A DNA stretch of 64,000 nucleotides from Sinomicrobium kalidii (GTDB lineage Bacteria; Bacteroidota; Bacteroidia; Flavobacteriales; Flavobacteriaceae): NCBI RefSeq assembly GCF_021183825.1, contig NZ_CP089211.1, forward strand, positions 2,914,001 to 2,978,000, in the 5' to 3' direction. Under the pieces are notes generated by a model. The model worked only from the letters and a program-made list of their open reading frames with translations, had not been told where the DNA came from and ran no database searches. A program made the translations under genes and the position numbers. Positions 4,711 through 60,194 of the stretch are shown here, one piece after another (position 1 is the stretch's first letter; the number at the start of each line of letters is the position of its first letter).

Positions 4711-5050
4711 GGTATGCGCCTACCTGTTGCTGAGCACTTCGGCAAGCTGGGCAGGCTCAATGCATGGCCTGAGGGGAACCTGATTTTCCGCGATTTTTTG
4801 CCCCGCCCCTAAAGGGTGATCCCGATAAATATCGGGAGTGGATAATCAGGTTCCTTTTAAGTGTGTACTTTTATGGTTTAAGACTTGAAAAGTGAGACGC
4901 TCAGGGACTCCTGGACTCCCCAACTCCAAAACTCCTCAACTCCCCAACCAAAAGGAATGCGCTACACGTCACTGCGAGTGAAACACTGCAGTCTCCCGGC
5001 GGGTATGCGCCTACCACCGGAGGTATGTTGCCGGCCTCCGGGAGATTGCC
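4711..5050. repeat. Long direct repeat, copy A (left of the rfb genes)
   Basis: This ~340 bp non-coding segment recurs at 9628-9967 in the same orientation, at a constant offset of 4917 bp without indels and with roughly nine mismatches counted by eye. It contains the inverted arms CCTGATTTTCC and GG-AAATCAGG around CCCCTAAAGGG and CCCGATAAATATCGGG, then a second REP-like hairpin bounded by CACTGCAG...GGAGATTGCC. The rest of the 4448-5205 gap holds the cysQ terminator, another CCCGATGGATATCGGG palindrome (about 4677) and the rfbA promoter region. Short open frames here are not credible genes. Confidence 0.9.
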
Positions 5051-9627: not shown

Positions 9628-9967
9628 GGTATGCGCCTACCTGTTGCTGAGCACTTCGGCAAGCTGGGCAGGCTCAATGCATGGCCTGAGGGGAACCTGA
9701 TTTTCCGCGATTTTTTGCCCCGCCCCTAAAGGGTGATCCCGATAAATATCGGGAGTGGAAAATCAGGCTCCTTTTAAGTGTGTACTTTTATGGTTTAAGA
9801 CTTGAAAAGTGAGATTCCCAGGGACTCCTGGACTCCCCAACTCCAAAACTCCTCAACTCCCCAACCAAAAGGAATGCGCTACACGTCACTGCGAGTGAAA
9901 CACTGCAGTCTCCCGGCGGGTATGCGCATGCCACCGGAGGTATGTTGCCGGCCTCCGGGAGATGGCC
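9628..9967. repeat. Long direct repeat, copy B (right of the rfb genes)
   Basis: This is the partner of the segment at 4711-5050, in the same orientation and about 97% identical by eye. Upstream, the shared CGTCACTGCGATCCC block (about 9505) is separated from the repeat by about 100 bp not present in copy A. Together the copies bracket rfbA, rfbC, rfbD and rfbB. Confidence 0.9.
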
Positions 9968-27262: not shown

Positions 27263-27353
27263 TAAGGGCTCTTGAAATTTGACTTCTGGCTTCCCGGACC
27301 AATGAAGGTAAAAGAGAAAAGAAGTTTGTAAAAGTAATTATTCTTTTAAATAC

Positions 27354-48724: not shown

Positions 48725-50155
48725 ATGAACAAACGCGAATTCTTAAAAAAAAGTAGTGTAGGTGCCCTTGGAATTATGGTGGTGCCCTCTTTGTTAAAAG
48801 CCGCTACGACCGGCGACCGTTTGCGAACCGCGCATATCGGTGTGGGGAATATGGGGAGGGAAGACCTGAAGGCCGTCTCATCCCATGCAGCCGTTGATGT
48901 AGTGGCGCTTTGTGATGTGGATGCCGTATATTTGTCCGAAGCGCATAAACTCTATCCGAAGGCCCGTGTGTTTTTTGATTACCGCGTTATGCTGGAGGAA
49001 ATGGGAGATGAAATAGATGCGGTGATCGTATCCACACCGGATCATACCCATGCCCCGGCCTCCATGCTGGCCATGCAGATGAACAAACCCGTTTACTGCC
49101 AGAAACCACTCACGCATTACGTATCAGAATCGAGGGCCATGAAAAAACTGGCTGCCGAAAAAGGATTAATAACCCAGATGGGGATACAGGTACATTCTTT
49201 TTACGATTACAAACTGGCCACACTTTTGATTCAGTCAGGCATTATCGGAAAAGTACATACCGTACACGCCTGGTCTCCGAAAAACTGGGGGTATGACGGC
49301 GCTGCACCGGAGGGTGAGGACCCGGTACCGTCACAACTGGATTGGAATCTGTGGTTGGGAACCTCACCCATGAGGCCGTACAAGGAGGGGGTGTATCATC
49401 CCGGGAACTGGAGAAAACTTATGGATTACGGTTGCGGTACCCTGGGCGACATGGGCGTACACATCTTCGATACCCCCTACAATGCCCTGCAATTGGATGT
49501 GCCGAAAACCATAATGACCGAATGCAGGCCCTCCAACGGCTTCGGTTATCCGGAACACAACACCGTAACCTATGAGTTTCCGGGTACCAAATACACCGCG
49601 AAGTCCTTAAAATGGATATGGTATGATGGCGAAGGTGCCCCGGCAGCACACGAAGATCTCGTGCTACCGGGAATGGATGTGAAAAAGAACGAAAAGAAAC
49701 AGGGAAAGGAAGCCGGGATCAAGGAAAAAATGTCGCTTGAGGCCAAAGTAGCCGGCGAGAATGAACTGCCCGAACAGGGAGCCATGTTCATAGGCGAGAA
49801 GGGACGCCTGTTGTTGCCTCATTTTATGCAATTGCCGAGAAAAATTGTTAAGGGAAAATACATTGATATTTCCGGCGAAATAGCTGAGCTGACCGCGAAG
49901 CACGACCTGGGTAAACCCGTTCGCAATTACGGGACCGAAGGACCTAAGCACTACCACCAGTTTGTCGACGCCTGTCTGGGGAAAACCGAATGTTCGGCAC
50001 CTTTTGATTATGCTGCGCGATTGACAGAGACGATTCTTTTGGGAACCATTGCAGGGCGCTTCCCCGGGGAGACCTTGCACTGGGATGCCGAAACCGCCAG
50101 GTTCAAAGAAGAAAAAGCCAATAAATATCTGGCCGGTGAGTACAGGCAGTTTTGA
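48725..50155 (+). CDS. Gfo/Idh/MocA family oxidoreductase with Tat signal
   Basis: The ATG at 48725 begins MNKREFLKKSSVGALGIM, a Tat-like signal with a leucine rather than a second arginine in the motif, so export is likely but not certain. The 476-residue protein has the Rossmann motif GVGNMGREDLK, ALCDVDAVYL, the EKP-like QKPLTH, and a C-terminal Gfo/Idh domain. It probably oxidises or reduces a sugar C3-hydroxyl with a bound NAD(H), working with the DUF1080 protein upstream. Reading the frame from further upstream would overlap that gene and is rejected. Confidence 0.9.
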   Translation: MNKREFLKKSSVGALGIMVVPSLLKAATTGDRLRTAHIGVGNMGREDLKAVSSHAAVDVVALCDVDAVYLSEAHKLYPKARVFFDYRVMLEEMGDEIDAVIVSTPDHTHAPASMLAMQMNKPVYCQKPLTHYVSESRAMKKLAAEKGLITQMGIQVHSFYDYKLATLLIQSGIIGKVHTVHAWSPKNWGYDGAAPEGEDPVPSQLDWNLWLGTSPMRPYKEGVYHPGNWRKLMDYGCGTLGDMGVHIFDTPYNALQLDVPKTIMTECRPSNGFGYPEHNTVTYEFPGTKYTAKSLKWIWYDGEGAPAAHEDLVLPGMDVKKNEKKQGKEAGIKEKMSLEAKVAGENELPEQGAMFIGEKGRLLLPHFMQLPRKIVKGKYIDISGEIAELTAKHDLGKPVRNYGTEGPKHYHQFVDACLGKTECSAPFDYAARLTETILLGTIAGRFPGETLHWDAETARFKEEKANKYLAGEYRQF

Positions 50156-50413
50156 AAGTATGCTACGGCCGGAACGGATGAACTGATCTCCGATTCCGGA
50201 ACTAATGCATCCGGAATTAGGTGGTGAACGATGAAAAACAATGCTGCATAGTCGCAATTAAATCAGGTCGTGAGGCCGCATATCTTCTTTTTGGAAAGGT
50301 AAATAAAGAATGTATTCCCCGGGGAAATACCGTTCGGTCGGATGTACGTATTTGTCTTCTGCCGGAAGGGTTTATCCGGGGTAAACAAGTACTCTGGTAT
50401 TTGTCGGGATATC

Positions 50414-50623
50414 TTTAGTACATGACAAAATTCGATCTGGGTGGATTTTCCTCTCCCGAAAGCTTTCGGGATTTTCACCCCATCCCTAAAGGGTGATCCC
50501 GATAAATATCGGGAGAGGAAAATCAGGTTCCCTTTAGGCGATGCATTGAGCCAGGTCGAAATGGTTAGGATCAAACTGATTTACCGATAAATCTGCATAA
50601 AACAAATTTTGTCATGTACTAAA
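50414..50623. mobile_element. MITE-like element, copy 1, with 9-bp target duplication
   Basis: Perfect 19-bp terminal inverted repeats, TTTAGTACATGACAAAATT at the left and its complement at 50605-50623, bound 210 bp without a gene. The element is flanked by the direct repeat CGGGATATC (50405-50413 and 50624-50632). Inside are CCCGAAAGCTTTCGGG, CCCTAAAGGG, CCCGATAAATATCGGG and the arm GATTTTCC...GGAAAATC. It sits in the 1.45-kb gap upstream of susC; 50640-51000 of that gap shows nothing recognisable. Confidence 0.88.
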
Positions 50624-51196
50624 CGGGATATCTTAAAAAAAGGATTATACCCACCCCTGGCCGGGCTAAATACGGTATCGTAACCGGCTTCGGATAACAA
50701 TGGATATCCTTTGTCTGCACACAGCTTTTCCTGATAAAGTTTCCCTGCCTGTTATGTCTACTGTAATCGGTGTTCGTAACCCTTCCCGGTACGGTGGCTA
50801 TAGTAGGAAATATCTCACTGTATGAAAAGATTCTTAGATATTCCCTTGCGGATCAATACAACCAATTTGAGGACCGCTTTTTTTCCATTTCAGTTCCGGA
50901 TTGATATTAAGGGTGCCCGTTGATCTCTCCGGCAGACTCGCGGCAGGTCTGTGCTTGCTATTGGAGATGACTGCCCGCCTCCATGAAATTCTCCCCCTAA
51001 ATAAAGCCGGTTAAAAGGACGTTTTAATGTTAATTTTTTTGAAATCAACCTGTCTTTTTCCATTTTTTCCTCAAACGTTATAGTACATTATATGATACGG
51101 GCTTAAACCCTGAAATTCCGGTGTTTACGTGCGATGTCATTATGCTAATTTAAAACGGTAAAAATTAATAATCCTCTATTTTTTTAAGTTAAAAAT

Positions 51197-51240
51197 TTTG
51201 TAATTAACAGTTATTGTTTAGTTTCGTGTAATCGATTGCA
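51197..51240 (+). promoter_or_regulatory. Candidate susC promoter with LacI-like operator
   Basis: TTTG (51197-51200), 18 nt, TAGTTTCG (51219-51226) resembles the Bacteroidota promoter with mismatches. Directly after it lies TGTAATCGATTGCA (51227-51240), a near-perfect palindrome with the central AATCGATT common in LacI-family operators. A repressor bound there would cover the start of transcription. No regulator gene is in the window. Confidence 0.45.
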
Positions 51241-51420
51241 CTAAATGTGTAACGACCGTAATAAAATGGATGGAAGGGGCACCAAACTTTCCGGATAGGT
51301 CATTACCGGCGGTGGGAAAAAATGCGGTGATGAATAGGGTGAGACCTGGGAACAAGGTTTACGGACTTCCCGAAAGGCATGCAGGAAGCCCTTATAGTAT
51401 TGAAACCAACTAAAATTAAC

Positions 51421-51576
51421 TTTAGTACATGACAAAAATTGTTTTCACCAGATTTCTCGGAAAATCAGTTCCCCCCCAACCCTAAAGGGAGCCTGATTTT
51501 CCTCGATTTGCTCCCTTTAGGGCTGGGGATAACAAGTCGAGGAATTACCGAAATTCAATTTTTGTCATGTACTAAA
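51421..51576. mobile_element. MITE-like element, copy 2, with 9-bp target duplication
   Basis: Perfect 21-bp inverted ends, beginning TTTAGTACATGACAAAAATT and ending at 51556-51576, bound 156 bp. The flanking 9-bp direct repeat is AAAATTAAC (51412-51420 and 51577-51585). The core is GGAAAATCAG, CCCTAAAGGG, CTGATTTTCC, followed by CTCCCTTTAGGG. It lies 30 bp before the susC start codon, inside the probable 5' untranslated region. Confidence 0.9.
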
Positions 51577-51606
51577 AAAATTAACCACATAAACTTTAAG
51601 AACATT

Positions 51607-54600
51607 ATGAAAAACTTTTTACTGGTGTCAAACACTGTAAAGCGGATACCCTTATTTGTTTTACTACTGTGTTTTCTTGTAAACGGCAGGGCTTTTGCCC
51701 AGCAGTCCGTTACGGTTACCGGAACGGTCAGTGACGGGGAACTGGATACTCCTTTGCCGGGGGCTACCGTAATGGAAAAAGGGACTTCAAATGGTACGTC
51801 GACAGATTTTGACGGGAACTATACATTAACAGTTTCAGGCAGCGATGCGGTTCTTGTTATAAGTTATATCGGGTATATCAGCCAGGAGGTCGGTATAAAC
51901 GGAAGGACGGAAATAAATAGTACTTTAGAGCCCAACCTTGAGGAATTGGATGAGGTAGTGGTTGTAGATTACGGGTATGGAAAGGTAAAACGGCAGGACA
52001 TGACCGGTTCGGTAGCTTCCATGTCGGCCAAGGAGATCTCAAAAATACCCACGTCCAGTGCCGCCGATGCCCTTACGGGAAGACTTCCCGGGGTTAGCGT
52101 AACTACAACCGATGGCGAACCGGGAGCGGATATAAAGATACGTATCAGGGGTGGCGGGTCCATAACCCAGGACAATTCGCCCTTATTTGTGGTAGACGGT
52201 TTTATAGTAGGGGATATCAACGACATTGCGCCCAACGATATCGAAAGCATAAACATATTAAAGGATGCCTCTGCCACCGCAGTATACGGGTCAAGGGCGG
52301 CCAATGGTGTTGTGGTGATCACCACCAAGAGCCCTATTGCCGGTAAGGTCTCTGTAGATTACAATAATTATTTTCAGTACAATTACCTGCCGAAAGACAG
52401 GAAATATGAGGTCTTATCACCTTACGAATATGTCCTGGCCAATTACGAATATGCCAAACTCCAGGGAACGGCGGCAACCGAAAATTTTGAGAAATTTTAT
52501 GGCAAGTATGACGATCTGGAACTGTACCAGTCTAAAGAAGGTACGGACTGGCAGGAGGAATTGTTTGGCAGCCCGAGATTTTCCCAGTATCACAACCTGG
52601 CGGTAAGCGGGGGGACGGATATGACCAAAATGAGATTGAGCGTGTCCTATAATGACGATGAGGGTATTCTGACAGGTTCGGCTTACGAAAGGACATCTGT
52701 AAACTTTAAACTCAGCCAGAAAATCGCAGACCCCTTATCCCTTGATGTGTCGGCCAGGGTCACCAATGCTGTTACAGATGGCGCCGGTACATCGACCAAC
52801 GCACAGCTGAAGATCAAGGATGCCGTACAGGCCAGACCGGTGAACGGAATTGCTGACGAACTCGATATCGATCTCAATCAGCTCGATGCGGACAACGACT
52901 ATGAATCGTTCCTCAGAAGCATGATACAGCCTACCGAACTGTTAAAACAGGATTGGCGCAAACGGACCGATAAAAGATATAATCTGAATGCCGGTCTGAC
53001 ATGGTCTGTTATTGACGGACTGGATCTGAAAACCGTCTTCACCACCCAAAGAAGGTTTTGGGAGAACCTGCGCTTTTACGGGCCATTGACCGGTGAGTCG
53101 TTCAACAACGGAGGGAGTATGCCTCTGGGAACAAAAGACAACCGGGAATATACTTCATACCGGTGGGTGACTACGTTGAACTATAAAAAACAATGGGGAG
53201 AAGACCATAAACTCGATGCCCTTGTGGGGTATGAAGTGTCTTCCAACGGATCGAAACAGGCCTTTTTACGGGGGGAGGACTACAGGTTGTCCATTACTCC
53301 GGAAGAACTGTTTGCCAATATGCAATTGGGACGTATAGATGATGCCTATACCAGGGAAGCTACGGATATCAACCGGAGGTCGATCTTCGGCCGGCTGGAT
53401 TTTCAGTTAAAAAACAAATATATCTGGACCGCAACACTGAGGGCCGATAAGTCCAGTGTTTTTACCGAAGACCTTAACCTGGGGATCTTTCCGGCACTGG
53501 CATTCGCCTGGAAAATTGACCAGGAGAACTTCCTGAGAAATTCCGGTTGGGTCGACGAATTGAAACTTAGGATCACCTATGGTGAAACCGGTAATGACAG
53601 GATAGATGCAGACGCTACCCGGTTTTTATTCAATGCGAATACGTTCCGGGGCCCGGGGTTCGGTAACGAAGAGAACGTATACTATACGCCAAAAGGCAAC
53701 TCGTTGTACAATCCGGAACTGGTGTGGGAAACTACAGTAACCAACAATATCGGTCTGGACTTTGGCCTGTTTAACAGAAGGCTGAACGGTAGTCTCGATT
53801 TTTACAGGAATGAAACCCGGGATCTGTTGCTGCGTTCTGCGATCTCCACCAATTCGGGTTTTCCGACCGAGTGGAAGAATATAGGATCTACATCCAATAC
53901 CGGCGCCGAGTTAGGCTTGAATGCCTACCTCGTAGACAGTGGTGATTTTACGCTTTCTGCCAGTCTTAACATCGGTACCAACACCTTTAAAATAGAGGCC
54001 CTCGATGAAACTAACGAAAGGTTCGAAAGGTCTAACTGGGCCAGTACCGATCTGAATAATATCAGTGATTATCACCTGGAAGTAGGTGGGAAATTAGGGA
54101 ATATATACGGATATGTGACCGATGGCATGTACACTACAGACGATTTCGAATCTTATGACGAGGCATCAGGAGACTATATCCTTAAAGAAGGTGTGCCGTC
54201 TTCAGGTAATGTGGTAGGAAACAGAAAAATAAGACCGGGTTTCTTAAGATTAAAAGACCTGAACGATGATGGAGAGATCAATGCCGATGACCGGCAGGTC
54301 ATAGGTAATGCATTGCCCGATTTTCAGGGTGGTTTCGGGTTTAATACTTCCTACAAAGGGTTCGATCTTTCCGTTTTCTTCAACTTCCAGTACGGGAACG
54401 ATGTGTACAACACGGGTAAAATTCAATACAATCAATTCAGAAGGGTGACCTATGGAAATATGCTCGACAGGATGAATTCCGGTAACAGGTTTACCTATAT
54501 AGATATTGACGGACAATATACGGGAACCGCCGGGGAAGTGGTGACCGACCTCGACCAACTGGACGAAATGAACCGGGGTAAGAATATTTGGTCGCACGCC

Positions 54601-54894
54601 AGCCACGGGATAGCCGGGGCCGTAGTCCATTCGTGGGCCATTGAGGACGGATCGTTTTTAAGGCTGAACAACCTCACCCTAGGGTATAATTTGCCCGATG
54701 AGCTCATATCTAAAATAGGCCTGTCCAAATTCAGGATATATGCCACGGGAAGGAACCTGCATATATGGACCAACTACTCAGGATACGATCCTGAGGTCGA
54801 TTCGAGAAGGAACAGTGGTTTAACACCCGGTGTGGATGATTCCTCTTACCCGAGGAGCCGTTCATACACCCTGGGTCTTAATCTCACTTTTTAA
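51607..54894 (+). CDS. SusC/RagA-type TonB-dependent outer-membrane transporter
   Basis: This beta-barrel imports oligosaccharides, here presumably pectin fragments, together with the SusD lipoprotein. The ATG at 51607 begins MKNFLLVSNTVKRIPLF, a signal peptide cleaved near AFAQQ; the open frame upstream runs through the MITE and is not protein. The 1095-residue protein has a carboxypeptidase-like domain (TVTGTVSDGE to about residue 105), then VVDYGYGKVKRQDMTGSV and the plug with IRIRGGGSITQDNSPLFVVDG and ASATAVYGSRAANGVV. The barrel ends GLNLTF. There is no N-terminal STN signalling domain, so it is a plain transporter. Confidence 0.96.
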   Translation: MKNFLLVSNTVKRIPLFVLLLCFLVNGRAFAQQSVTVTGTVSDGELDTPLPGATVMEKGTSNGTSTDFDGNYTLTVSGSDAVLVISYIGYISQEVGINGRTEINSTLEPNLEELDEVVVVDYGYGKVKRQDMTGSVASMSAKEISKIPTSSAADALTGRLPGVSVTTTDGEPGADIKIRIRGGGSITQDNSPLFVVDGFIVGDINDIAPNDIESINILKDASATAVYGSRAANGVVVITTKSPIAGKVSVDYNNYFQYNYLPKDRKYEVLSPYEYVLANYEYAKLQGTAATENFEKFYGKYDDLELYQSKEGTDWQEELFGSPRFSQYHNLAVSGGTDMTKMRLSVSYNDDEGILTGSAYERTSVNFKLSQKIADPLSLDVSARVTNAVTDGAGTSTNAQLKIKDAVQARPVNGIADELDIDLNQLDADNDYESFLRSMIQPTELLKQDWRKRTDKRYNLNAGLTWSVIDGLDLKTVFTTQRRFWENLRFYGPLTGESFNNGGSMPLGTKDNREYTSYRWVTTLNYKKQWGEDHKLDALVGYEVSSNGSKQAFLRGEDYRLSITPEELFANMQLGRIDDAYTREATDINRRSIFGRLDFQLKNKYIWTATLRADKSSVFTEDLNLGIFPALAFAWKIDQENFLRNSGWVDELKLRITYGETGNDRIDADATRFLFNANTFRGPGFGNEENVYYTPKGNSLYNPELVWETTVTNNIGLDFGLFNRRLNGSLDFYRNETRDLLLRSAISTNSGFPTEWKNIGSTSNTGAELGLNAYLVDSGDFTLSASLNIGTNTFKIEALDETNERFERSNWASTDLNNISDYHLEVGGKLGNIYGYVTDGMYTTDDFESYDEASGDYILKEGVPSSGNVVGNRKIRPGFLRLKDLNDDGEINADDRQVIGNALPDFQGGFGFNTSYKGFDLSVFFNFQYGNDVYNTGKIQYNQFRRVTYGNMLDRMNSGNRFTYIDIDGQYTGTAGEVVTDLDQLDEMNRGKNIWSHASHGIAGAVVHSWAIEDGSFLRLNNLTLGYNLPDELISKIGLSKFRIYATGRNLHIWTNYSGYDPEVDSRRNSGLTPGVDDSSYPRSRSYTLGLNLTF

Positions 54895-54922
54895 CACAGG
54901 TATGGACATAAAACTTATAGCG

Positions 54923-56734
54923 ATGAAAATAAAATATATAATCACATTATTTGCCATAGCATTAATGAGTTCCTGCGACAAGGATTTCATGAACCCCGAT
55001 TCGCTCTCTACATTCGATAAAGATTATATTTATTCCAATGTGGACGATGCGAGAAATGGTGTAAACTCCATATACTCACACTTTAATCAGGATGCTTTCC
55101 GGTCCAGGCTGTCCAACAACATGACCGGAAATACCGATATTGAACACCAGTCCGGATGGACCAGCAATGGCGATCGTTACCAGATATGGAACCTCGATGC
55201 CCTGGACAGTAACCGCGACCTGAACATTGTATGGACCTATGCATACCGGGCCATCAGGGATGCCAATATAGCTATCGACGGCATTACCAACAGTGATGTA
55301 TTGGTCAATGGCGACGATACCGATATACAAACCATGATGCAGCTTTTAGGAGAGGCCTACACCCTGAGGGCCTACTGGTACAGTATGCTCATCTATTATT
55401 TTGGGGATGTACCCTATGTGACCGAAGCCCCCGTAGCCGGTCAGGATTTTAACCTTCCCAAAACAGACAGGAACGAGATACTCAGTGGTGAAATAGAGGC
55501 ATTGATGAATGTTGAAGAGGATATGCGCTGGGCCGATGAAACCCGGTACGGCATAGAGCAGGTCAACAGGGAATACACCCTGGGGATGATCGCCCGGCTG
55601 GCCCTGCAAAGAGGAGGCTATTTCCTGAAACCCGACCTTACCCAGGACCGGAAAAGCGATTACCTGGAATATTACCAGATTGCCCGCGATTATACTAAGA
55701 AACTGATCGACCTCAAGGACCGCCCGCTACCGGAAGATTTCAGGCAGGTGTTCCTTAATCAGTGTAAGTTTATTTCCCCGCTCAACGAAGACATCCTTTT
55801 TGAAGTGCCTTTTCCCATGGGTAGCGGAGATGTGGCATGGAATATTGGTATAAGAGTGGAGGGAGGCACCGATGCCCTGCACGATTACGGCTCCGGAGGT
55901 AACTATATGGCCATGCCTGTAACCTACTATATGTCTTTTGATTCTGATGACAAAAGACGTGAAGTGACCTGCGGGTTATACATGATAACTAAAGAATTTA
56001 CAATCGATTTTGTAAATAGTCCCATGAATATTTCACAGGGAAAATGGAGCCGTCACTTTCTGTCCGAACCTCCCGGGCCATCTACGGCCAAGGGAACCGG
56101 TATTAACTGGCCGATGATGCGCTATCCCGATGTACTCCTGATGTTCGCAGAGGCCGAAAATGAACTGAACGGCCCCACCGCCGCCGCACAGGAGGCATTG
56201 AAAAGAGTGCGTCAAAGGGCCTTTGCTCCCGAAGTCTGGACGGAAAAAGTAGATAACTATGTAGCACAGGCCGCCGCTTCCAAAACTGCTTTTTTCGATG
56301 CTATTGTAGACGAAAGGGCCTGGGAGTTCGGTGGAGAGATGATCCGGAAGTACGAACTGATCCGCTGGGGGATTTATGCCGAAAAAGTACAGGAAACCGT
56401 AGAAGGTTTAAAGAAAATGGCCGGCGATGCCAATAACGGAACAGGTGACGGACCGGATTATATGTACTGGAAAGTGAACGAAAGTGGTGATTTTGAAGTA
56501 TTGAATCCCGATTTTAAGGTAGTGGCCCCGCCGGACGACACCTGGAACCGTACCGCATTTTTACTGGACCTTCATGACGATACCACCACCTATGACGAGT
56601 GGATCACAAGAGACTGGGAAAATTATATCAACGGACCCGCCGGCTCAGGCGTGGTGCGCTATATATTCCCCATACCGAATGAAGCGATAGAAAATAGCCG
56701 GGGAACACTGAGCAATAACGGTTATGGATTTTAA
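54923..56734 (+). CDS. SusD/RagB-type glycan-binding lipoprotein
   Basis: This is the surface lipoprotein lid of the SusC transporter. I choose the ATG at 54923 because MKIKYIITLFAIALMSSC gives a clean lipoprotein signal; an in-frame ATG at 54902 adds seven residues. The 603-residue protein has the N-terminal SusD-like helical region (DDARNGVNSIYSHF, AYTLRAYWYSMLIYYFGDVPYV) and the C-terminal part with RYPDVLLMFAEAENELNG and DERAWEFGGEMIRKYELIRW. The 28-bp gap to susC indicates one transcript. Confidence 0.95.
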   Translation: MKIKYIITLFAIALMSSCDKDFMNPDSLSTFDKDYIYSNVDDARNGVNSIYSHFNQDAFRSRLSNNMTGNTDIEHQSGWTSNGDRYQIWNLDALDSNRDLNIVWTYAYRAIRDANIAIDGITNSDVLVNGDDTDIQTMMQLLGEAYTLRAYWYSMLIYYFGDVPYVTEAPVAGQDFNLPKTDRNEILSGEIEALMNVEEDMRWADETRYGIEQVNREYTLGMIARLALQRGGYFLKPDLTQDRKSDYLEYYQIARDYTKKLIDLKDRPLPEDFRQVFLNQCKFISPLNEDILFEVPFPMGSGDVAWNIGIRVEGGTDALHDYGSGGNYMAMPVTYYMSFDSDDKRREVTCGLYMITKEFTIDFVNSPMNISQGKWSRHFLSEPPGPSTAKGTGINWPMMRYPDVLLMFAEAENELNGPTAAAQEALKRVRQRAFAPEVWTEKVDNYVAQAAASKTAFFDAIVDERAWEFGGEMIRKYELIRWGIYAEKVQETVEGLKKMAGDANNGTGDGPDYMYWKVNESGDFEVLNPDFKVVAPPDDTWNRTAFLLDLHDDTTTYDEWITRDWENYINGPAGSGVVRYIFPIPNEAIENSRGTLSNNGYGF

Positions 56735-58406: not shown

Positions 58407-58478
58407 TCCCGTGGATATAAGGGGGCGGTTAACCGGATTTAACGACCAAAAATCTTTACGCTAATAAACTTAAATTCA

Positions 58479-58657
58479 AGTGCATGGCAAAATTAAAACA
58501 GTTTCTCAGGCTTTGCCGGAACATCAATTTTACCCTTTCCATTTCGACCGGGCTCAATGCATCGCCTGAAAGGAGTCTGATTTTCCTCGATTTCTCCCTT
58601 TAGGGTCGGGGTACAAAATCGAGGAAAATCAGGCGGAATTGAATTTTGCCATGCACT
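58479..58657. mobile_element. MITE-like element, copy 3 (diverged ends)
   Basis: AGTGCATGGCAAAATT (58479-58494) and its complement (58642-58657) form 16-bp inverted ends that differ from copies 1 and 2 (GTGCATGG versus GTACATGA). Inside, CTGATTTTCCTCGATTT and AAATCGAGGAAAATCAG pair perfectly over 17 bp around CCCTTTAGGG. A block around GGGCTCAATGCATCGCC is shared, inverted, with copy 1. No clean target duplication is visible. It fills most of the gap between the DUF5123-like gene and the first pectate lyase. Confidence 0.78.
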
Positions 58658-58697
58658 AAACCATTAAATTGAATATTAACCCCGAAAAAGGAATGAA

Positions 58698-60194
58698 ATG
58701 AAGATCAGGAATTATATCATAATGGCTGTGACCGGACTGGTCCTGGCCTGCAGTGCTGAAGATGCGACGGGTATCGGCAATAATGACGATCCCGCCGGAG
58801 AGAACGGAGACCAGGAAGAGGTTACGGAAGATCCCGTACAGGTCGAAGAAGAAGCCTATGCCTTTCCCGGGGCCGAAGGCTTTGGCCGTAATACAACCGG
58901 AGGCAGGGGAGGAAAAGTACTGTTCGTAACCAATTTGAACGACAGCGGTGAAGGCAGCTTTAGGGCCGCTGTGAATGAAAGCGGCCCCCGTTACATCTTA
59001 TTTAAGGTGTCGGGAAATATCGAATTAAAGTCGAGGCTGAACATCAGCAACGGGAACCTGACCATTGCCGGACAGACAGCACCGGGCGACGGTATCTGCA
59101 TTAAGGACTACCCCGTGGTTATTGATGCCGATAATATAATTATCCGCTTTCTGAGGTTCAGGATGGGCGACGAAGCTGAACAGGAAGCCGATGCCCTGGA
59201 ATCGCGGTTTCATAAAAACATCATCATCGACCATTGTTCGCTGAGCTGGAGTACTGACGAAACGGCAACCTTTTATTCCAATGAAAATACCACCCTGCAA
59301 TGGTGCTTTATCACGGAAAGCCTGAGGAATTCCGTGCACGGTAAGGGAGCACATGGCTATGGCGGTATCTGGGGCGGTAAAAGGGCCTCTTTTCACCACA
59401 ACCTGCTGGCCCATCACGACAGCAGGAACCCGAGACTTGGCGAAAGAGCAGATGAGTCCTTTGCACTTACCGACCTGGTAGACCTCAGGAACAATGTGGT
59501 CTACAACTGGCAGGGCAACAGCGCCTACGGGGGCGAGGCCATGAATGTCAACATCGTGAACTGCTATTACAAACCCGGGCCGGCAACAACCAAGACCGAA
59601 CGCATCATTTCCATTGATAAGAGCAAAAATGAAGATTCGGAGGTTTATGATGTCTGGGGCAAGTTCTACATAGACGGTAATTATATGGAAGGAAGCGCAC
59701 GTGCCACCGATGATAATTGGGAATACGGTGTGTACAACCAGTTTCACCACAGTTACGGTGAAGTTCCGGACGAAGACAAAGCGGCCATGCGCCTGCCGGA
59801 ACCTCATGATATTGAAAATAATGTAACCACCCATTCCGCACAGGAAGCCTATGAAAAAGTGCTGGATTTCGGCGGAGCGTCATTGTCCAGGGATGCCGTG
59901 GATGCGCGGATAGCGGAGGAAGTCCGTACGGCCTCCTACACCTATGAAGGATCGAACGGAAGCACCAACGGGATTATTGATACCCAGGCCGATGTTGGCG
60001 GATGGCCCGCACTGGAAAGCCTGGACCCCGCCAGGGATACTTCCGGTGACGGGATGCCGGACGAATGGAAAGAGAAAATGAAACTGGACCCCGAAGCGGA
60101 TAACCCGAACGGAAATGAGTTGAGTACGGCATATGACAATATCGAAGTATATATGAACAGCTTGGTAGAAGCGATCACAGAAAACCAGAATTAA
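58698..60194 (+). CDS. Pectate lyase, polysaccharide lyase family 1 (first copy)
   Basis: This enzyme cleaves polygalacturonate by beta-elimination. The 498-residue lipoprotein has lipobox VLAC near residue 17 and an acidic linker to about residue 50. The PL1 beta-helix follows with AFPGAEGFGRNTTGGRGG, VTNLNDSGEGSFRAAV, IAGQTAPGDGI, the Ca-binding region DHCSLSWSTDETATFY and HGYGGIWGGKRASFHHN with HDSRNPRLG, whose Arg is the expected catalytic base. The C-terminus is dockerin-like only in a loose sense (DTSGDGMPDEWKEK, a Ca-binding motif). Confidence 0.93.
   Translation: MKIRNYIIMAVTGLVLACSAEDATGIGNNDDPAGENGDQEEVTEDPVQVEEEAYAFPGAEGFGRNTTGGRGGKVLFVTNLNDSGEGSFRAAVNESGPRYILFKVSGNIELKSRLNISNGNLTIAGQTAPGDGICIKDYPVVIDADNIIIRFLRFRMGDEAEQEADALESRFHKNIIIDHCSLSWSTDETATFYSNENTTLQWCFITESLRNSVHGKGAHGYGGIWGGKRASFHHNLLAHHDSRNPRLGERADESFALTDLVDLRNNVVYNWQGNSAYGGEAMNVNIVNCYYKPGPATTKTERIISIDKSKNEDSEVYDVWGKFYIDGNYMEGSARATDDNWEYGVYNQFHHSYGEVPDEDKAAMRLPEPHDIENNVTTHSAQEAYEKVLDFGGASLSRDAVDARIAEEVRTASYTYEGSNGSTNGIIDTQADVGGWPALESLDPARDTSGDGMPDEWKEKMKLDPEADNPNGNELSTAYDNIEVYMNSLVEAITENQN

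Follow-up and report, generated by a model that had tools for sequence, protein, structure and literature searches.

MITEs in Sinomicrobium kalidii with the ends of an ISBf13-like, IS4-family insertion sequence

Short elements and their flanks in the window

Upstream of a SusC-like gene of Sinomicrobium kalidii lie two short elements with identical, inverted ends and repeated flanks, which raises the question of what they are and which enzyme moved them. The DNA analysed (the window) comprises 64,000 nucleotides, and all features are given on its + strand. Element A (210 bp, 50414..50623) is bounded by exact 17-bp terminal inverted repeats (TTTAGTACATGACAAAA) and flanked by two exact 9-bp copies of CGGGATATC (50405..50413 on the left and 50624..50632 on the right). 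Element B (156 bp, 51421..51576), the ends of which form a perfect inverted repeat of 21 bp, lies between two exact 9-bp copies of AAAATTAAC (51412..51420 and 51577..51585). A sequence-only reading had taken both for MITEs with identical inverted ends and two different 9-bp repeats, and this description proved accurate down to the exact 17-bp ends and the exact target duplications (TSDs). A third, diverged relative, which that reading had placed at 58479-58657, is indeed present, albeit with better coordinates of 58476..58660 (element C, 185 bp). Its left end (TCAAGTGCATGGCAAAA) and right end (TTTAGTGCATGGCAAAA) depart from the 17-bp pattern at four and two positions, respectively, and its flanks, matching at 6/9 bases, form no clear TSD. 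Allowing up to three mismatches, the end pattern was matched six times in the window, compared with 0.31 matches expected, and none of 100 shuffled windows reached six; the match at 27346 has three mismatches and stands alone.

The ORF listing of the window contains no transposase ORF inside A or B, as had been claimed for both. A TTG-started ORF beginning at 51439 was rejected as a candidate, as it only extends the SusC-like gene upstream of its ATG at 51607. Both elements have strong hairpin potential (DNA fold z of -9.05 for A, RNA fold z of -11.69 for B). Only 21 bp separate the end of B's right duplication from the ATG (51607) of this gene, which encodes a SusC-like TonB-dependent receptor; C stops 37 bp upstream of an ORF at 58698. 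Immediately after B come genes for SusC-like (TonB plug) and SusD proteins, at 51607-56734 of the window.

Copies in the S. kalidii genome and at orthologous loci

The S. kalidii genome, searched as one contig of 5,364,211 bases, contains 48 ends with at most two mismatches, compared with four for a backwards control pattern. Ends were paired when they lay within a few hundred bases of each other, and the weaker end of the kept pairs has at most four mismatches. This resulted in 19 pairs, 15 from loci fetched first and four added later, with A and B included; the remaining ends had no partner that was kept under these limits. Left out of the count were pairings of more than 1000 bp (1157 and 1004), the cross pairing of A with B (1163 bp), an alternative partner for 4920530, and, at 3376549, a pair of ends spanning 77 bp. 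The 9-bp flanks matched completely in five of the 19 pairs, at 8/9 in two, at 7/9 in one, and at fewer positions in 11. Copies lacking matching duplications, which the sequence-only reading had named as evidence that would count against it, thus do exist (11/19 pairs below 7/9), yet 7/19 pairs match at 8/9 or better. Among the 11 low-match pairs, the one at 4296621 would be flanked by GAATTTGAT on either side given a 2-base indel in its left end, and the one at 2459170 has an exact 8-base flank match. Poor flanks despite near-perfect ends were found at 3790359 (5/9) and 2047778 (4/9). Most of the low flank matches can presumably be put down to decay in older copies.

All 15 elements examined for their position lie outside ORFs of at least 120 aa, two of them overlapping the edge of an ORF by a few bases. 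The family is thus short, non-coding, bounded by terminal inverted repeats, associated with TSDs of fixed length (9 bp), and present in multiple dispersed copies, which are the properties expected of MITEs. In the plasmid and phage collections, MITE A had no match.

Homologous empty sites that already contain the flanking repeats would also have spoken against insertion, and in this regard one orthologous locus is ambiguous. At 4861498, where the TSD is perfect (9/9), similar AT-rich words flank the site in two sister species without the element; the duplication there could therefore be partly pre-existing. At 3364958, the corresponding interval of a congener (G005) lacks the element and is too diverged to present a clean single target copy. 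At 3348068, S. pectinilyticum (G003) aligns at the right flank only, with one related target word. No empty site was obtained for A and B, because in the sister species the long alignment upstream of A is limited to ~49601-50175.

An insertion sequence with the same ends, and its transposase

When 60 relatives were searched for the end, nine yielded a match. One of them, Sinomicrobium oceani CGMCC 1.12145, from the same genus as S. kalidii, carries a 1213-bp element whose left end is identical at 17/17 positions and whose right end is CTAAGTACATGACAAAA. It is present as three identical copies at contig ends, representing two inferred insertions. Its one ORF encodes a 367-aa transposase, which matches the IS4-family model NF033591 over the cut-off (E 3.7e-69) and PF01609 as well. 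The catalytic residues are D104, D169, and E273, with spacers of 64 and 103, and YRERWQIETLFKALK is the Y-2-R-3-E-6-K signature. According to the available part of PMC2266710, the IS4 family is defined by D(60-110)D(100-150)E, the YREK motif, one ORF, and duplications of roughly 10 bp; the S. oceani element fits this definition in DDE spacing, YREK, the single ORF, and ~10-bp duplications. Each of the two insertions, pieced together from two contigs, is flanked by a repeated word (AAATTTGGT / AAATTTGGT and GTATTTTTT / GTATTTTTT). The AAATTTGGT insertion splits a YggS-family gene, the joined frame of which is open when one 9-bp copy is left out. The left piece matches positions 4-135 of TIGR00044 with 104.6 bits and the right piece positions 135-229 with 86.1 bits, each half alone falling below the whole-protein cut-off of 106.25. 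When the left piece was used to search genomes G000 and G002-G005 (with no positive control in this search), no yggS-family homologue was found at E 1e-20.

Seven relatives of this insertion sequence (IS) in other Bacteroidota share its ends exactly or almost exactly. S. oceani and other Bacteroidota thus contain the full-length transposon that had been predicted from the MITEs, with its matching ends and 9-bp duplications. A perfect 9-bp TSD flanks four of the seven and none flanks the other three; all seven transposases contain the YREK pattern, and two have internal stops (one in L090, six in L095). In a survey of 397 genomes of the family, six contained the IS at an E-value of 1e-60 or lower. 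At six further survey loci with both flanks, inspected by eye, no 9-bp TSD was seen (0/6); one of these, L177, and L092 are a single insert, and stop codons are present in four of the remaining five.

The sequence-only reading did not recognise the end sequence as that of any named family, which did not hold: on the Bacteroides fragilis plasmid NZ_CP036551, the annotation ISBf13 (IS4 family) is given to an element whose ends (TTTAGTAGATGACAAAA / CTAAGTACATGACAAAA) are almost identical to these. This element is about 1.2 kb long, and its transposase is 46% identical to that of S. oceani; this copy has no TSD. It (L124, NZ_CP036551.1) adjoins a nim gene, and nimA is listed with ISBf13 in the available part of PMC6927303. 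Thus, the end sequence is not new. The MITE family itself appears to be undescribed, and literature searches on it and on its 13-base end sequence found no description.

With the S. oceani transposase as query, no match was obtained in the one-contig S. kalidii genome at E 0.001; the positive control, S. oceani itself, was found at E 2.6e-253. The query also matched a 118-residue stretch in S. pectinilyticum and a 45-residue stretch in G002. Ends with at most one mismatch are present in 4/6 genomes of the genus (S. kalidii, S. oceani, S. pectinilyticum, and G005), and three of the four such ends of S. oceani belong to the IS.

It could be argued that we are dealing with REP/BIME-like palindromes, or with hairpins of regulatory function, whose flanking repeats arose by chance, as A and B have strong hairpin potential, the 15 elements examined avoid the longer ORFs, and core sequence is common to repeats without terminal inverted repeats at 4754-4859 and 9671-9776. 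However, seven of the 15 pairs fetched first have flanks matching at 8/9 or better, compared with not a single one above 6/9 among 210 non-self pairings, and the MITEs share identical ends with an IS. Such TSD statistics, together with the ends common to MITEs and IS, refute the simple palindrome or chance reading, which we consider extremely improbable. A different transposase, still resident in S. kalidii, might instead move the elements via similar ends; the genome contains six PF01609 (DDE_Tnp_1) stretches, and a lone MITE-type end lies ~0.9 kb from one of them (L103). This end is, however, the only one with at most four mismatches within the 1.5-kb flanks of the six stretches, the other five having none in this PF01609-based survey. 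Furthermore, a tblastn comparison of L103 with the S. oceani transposase gave no match up to E 10, and the sequence on the inner side of the lone end looks, by eye, like the interior of a MITE. A resident mover of this kind is therefore very unlikely. L103 (G000:C1:4115169-4116757) is a candidate for a different IS, with ends CTAAAATCCGCATG and an 8-bp repeat, GATATATC, around its DDE_Tnp_1 stretch.

We conclude that A, B, and C are very probably MITEs moved in trans by an ISBf13-like IS4-family transposase. The earlier proposals of MITEs, of insertion with 9-bp duplications, and of an enzyme acting in trans are all supported; for A and B, the best reading is that of orphan MITEs mobilised in trans, with the S. 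oceani-type enzyme as the inferred mover. The 17-bp ends would serve as binding sites for an IS4-family DDE transposase, which would cut the MITE out and insert it at staggered cuts in the target, the repair of which would give rise to the 9-bp duplications; a cut-and-paste route is stated for IS4-family elements in the available part of PMC2266710. The enzyme would be the S. oceani-type transposase or a close relative, either lost or visiting, and the MITEs are presumably immobile at present unless an IS re-enters the genome.

Origin of the elements, their ends, and known counterparts

The similarity of A and B to the S. oceani IS is confined to the terminal 17 bases; an origin of the two as internal deletions of this IS therefore finds no support. 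An element of G005 (224927) shares 41 bp with the left end of the IS, among the matches listed. A differs from an element at another site in S. pectinilyticum by three substitutions and one extra segment of 25 bases, although other DNA compared between the two species is about 80-90% identical, which suggests recent movement or transfer of an A-type element. The 25-base segment resembles, by eye, sequence in C and in the repeats at 4754-4859 and 9671-9776, and the MITE cores thus seem to be partly built from host repeats. Those two intergenic repeats, nearly identical to each other, share MITE core sequence and a GGCTCAATGCAT segment and lack GTACATGAC ends. A MITE-carrying stretch of 3017 bp is 99.7% identical between S. 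kalidii (C1:1832787-1835803, L001) and S. pectinilyticum (C37:62996-66012, L070), which, compared with ~80-90% elsewhere, suggests recent horizontal exchange.

The ends of the IS are lopsided. In all nine ISBf13-like copies checked, the element terminates with the stop codon (TAG or TAA); the right ends of these copies read CTAAG or TTAAG and the left end TTTAG. Among the 48 ends of S. kalidii, 30 begin with TTTAG, none with CTAAG, and two with TTAAG, a tally that is biased because the search pattern itself began with TTTAG, from which CTAAG already differs at as many positions (two) as the search tolerated. On a reading in which the MITEs carry two left ends, the right end of the IS would be held at CTAAG or TTAAG because the stop codon is its last three bases, and we infer that loss of coding freed the right end of the MITEs to match the left. 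Seven further IS loci have a candidate right end; inspected by eye, six show CTAAG and one (L180) has TTTAG at both ends. The element annotated as ISAba33 has its annotated stop 18 bases inside the end. Both this element and L180 stand against a stop-codon rule for the end. The wider proposition, that a terminal stop codon makes the IS ends lopsided, that MITEs with two left ends may be better substrates, that the cores are in part host palindromes, and that the family has outlasted its enzyme in this genome, is accordingly tentative and, taken as a whole, rather unlikely to be correct.

The ISBf13-like IS is autonomous and coding, whereas the MITEs carry no gene; the comparison of the MITEs with ISBf13 covered the ends. 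Within the IS4 family, the IS10 subgroup is described in the available part of PMC2266710 as comprising elements of 1200-1350 bp with 9-bp direct repeats, YREK, and 5'-NT ends, the latter given as CT in Table 1. In length (1213 bp), 9-bp duplications, and YREK, the S. oceani IS resembles this subgroup; it differs from the CT ends in that here the left end starts with TT and the right end with CT or TT. The ISAba33-annotated element is also similar, its ends being CTTTGTACACGACAAAA / CTCTGTACACGACAAAT and its 9-bp TSD perfect, and ISAba1-annotated transposases are about 42% identical. We take both ISAba1 and ISAba33 to be members of the IS10 subgroup.

Among known MITEs, MITEAba12 of Acinetobacter is likewise short, has 9-bp TSDs, and is identical to its presumed parent IS at the ends only, as far as the available part of PMC6382973 describes it; that parent, ISAba12, is resident in the strain, whereas no resident parent was found in S. 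kalidii. MITECca01 of Cardinium (~240 bp), from the same phylum, is also tied to its parental IS through its ends (PMC9769881, in the part available), but this parent, ISCca4, belongs to the IS982 family and is still present, which differs from the case described here.

A previously unlabelled repeat family of Sinomicrobium-like bacteria is now linked to a definite transposase; the repeats can therefore be annotated and their activity tested. As B lies 21 bp before the start codon of the SusC-like gene and C 37 bp before an ORF, both could, judging by their positions, affect gene expression. The IS of S. oceani, together with MITEs in a genome where this IS was not detected, offers a natural setting in which to study whether MITEs persist longer than their enzyme, and the same pair is suited to the question of whether two identical ends outcompete those of the IS.
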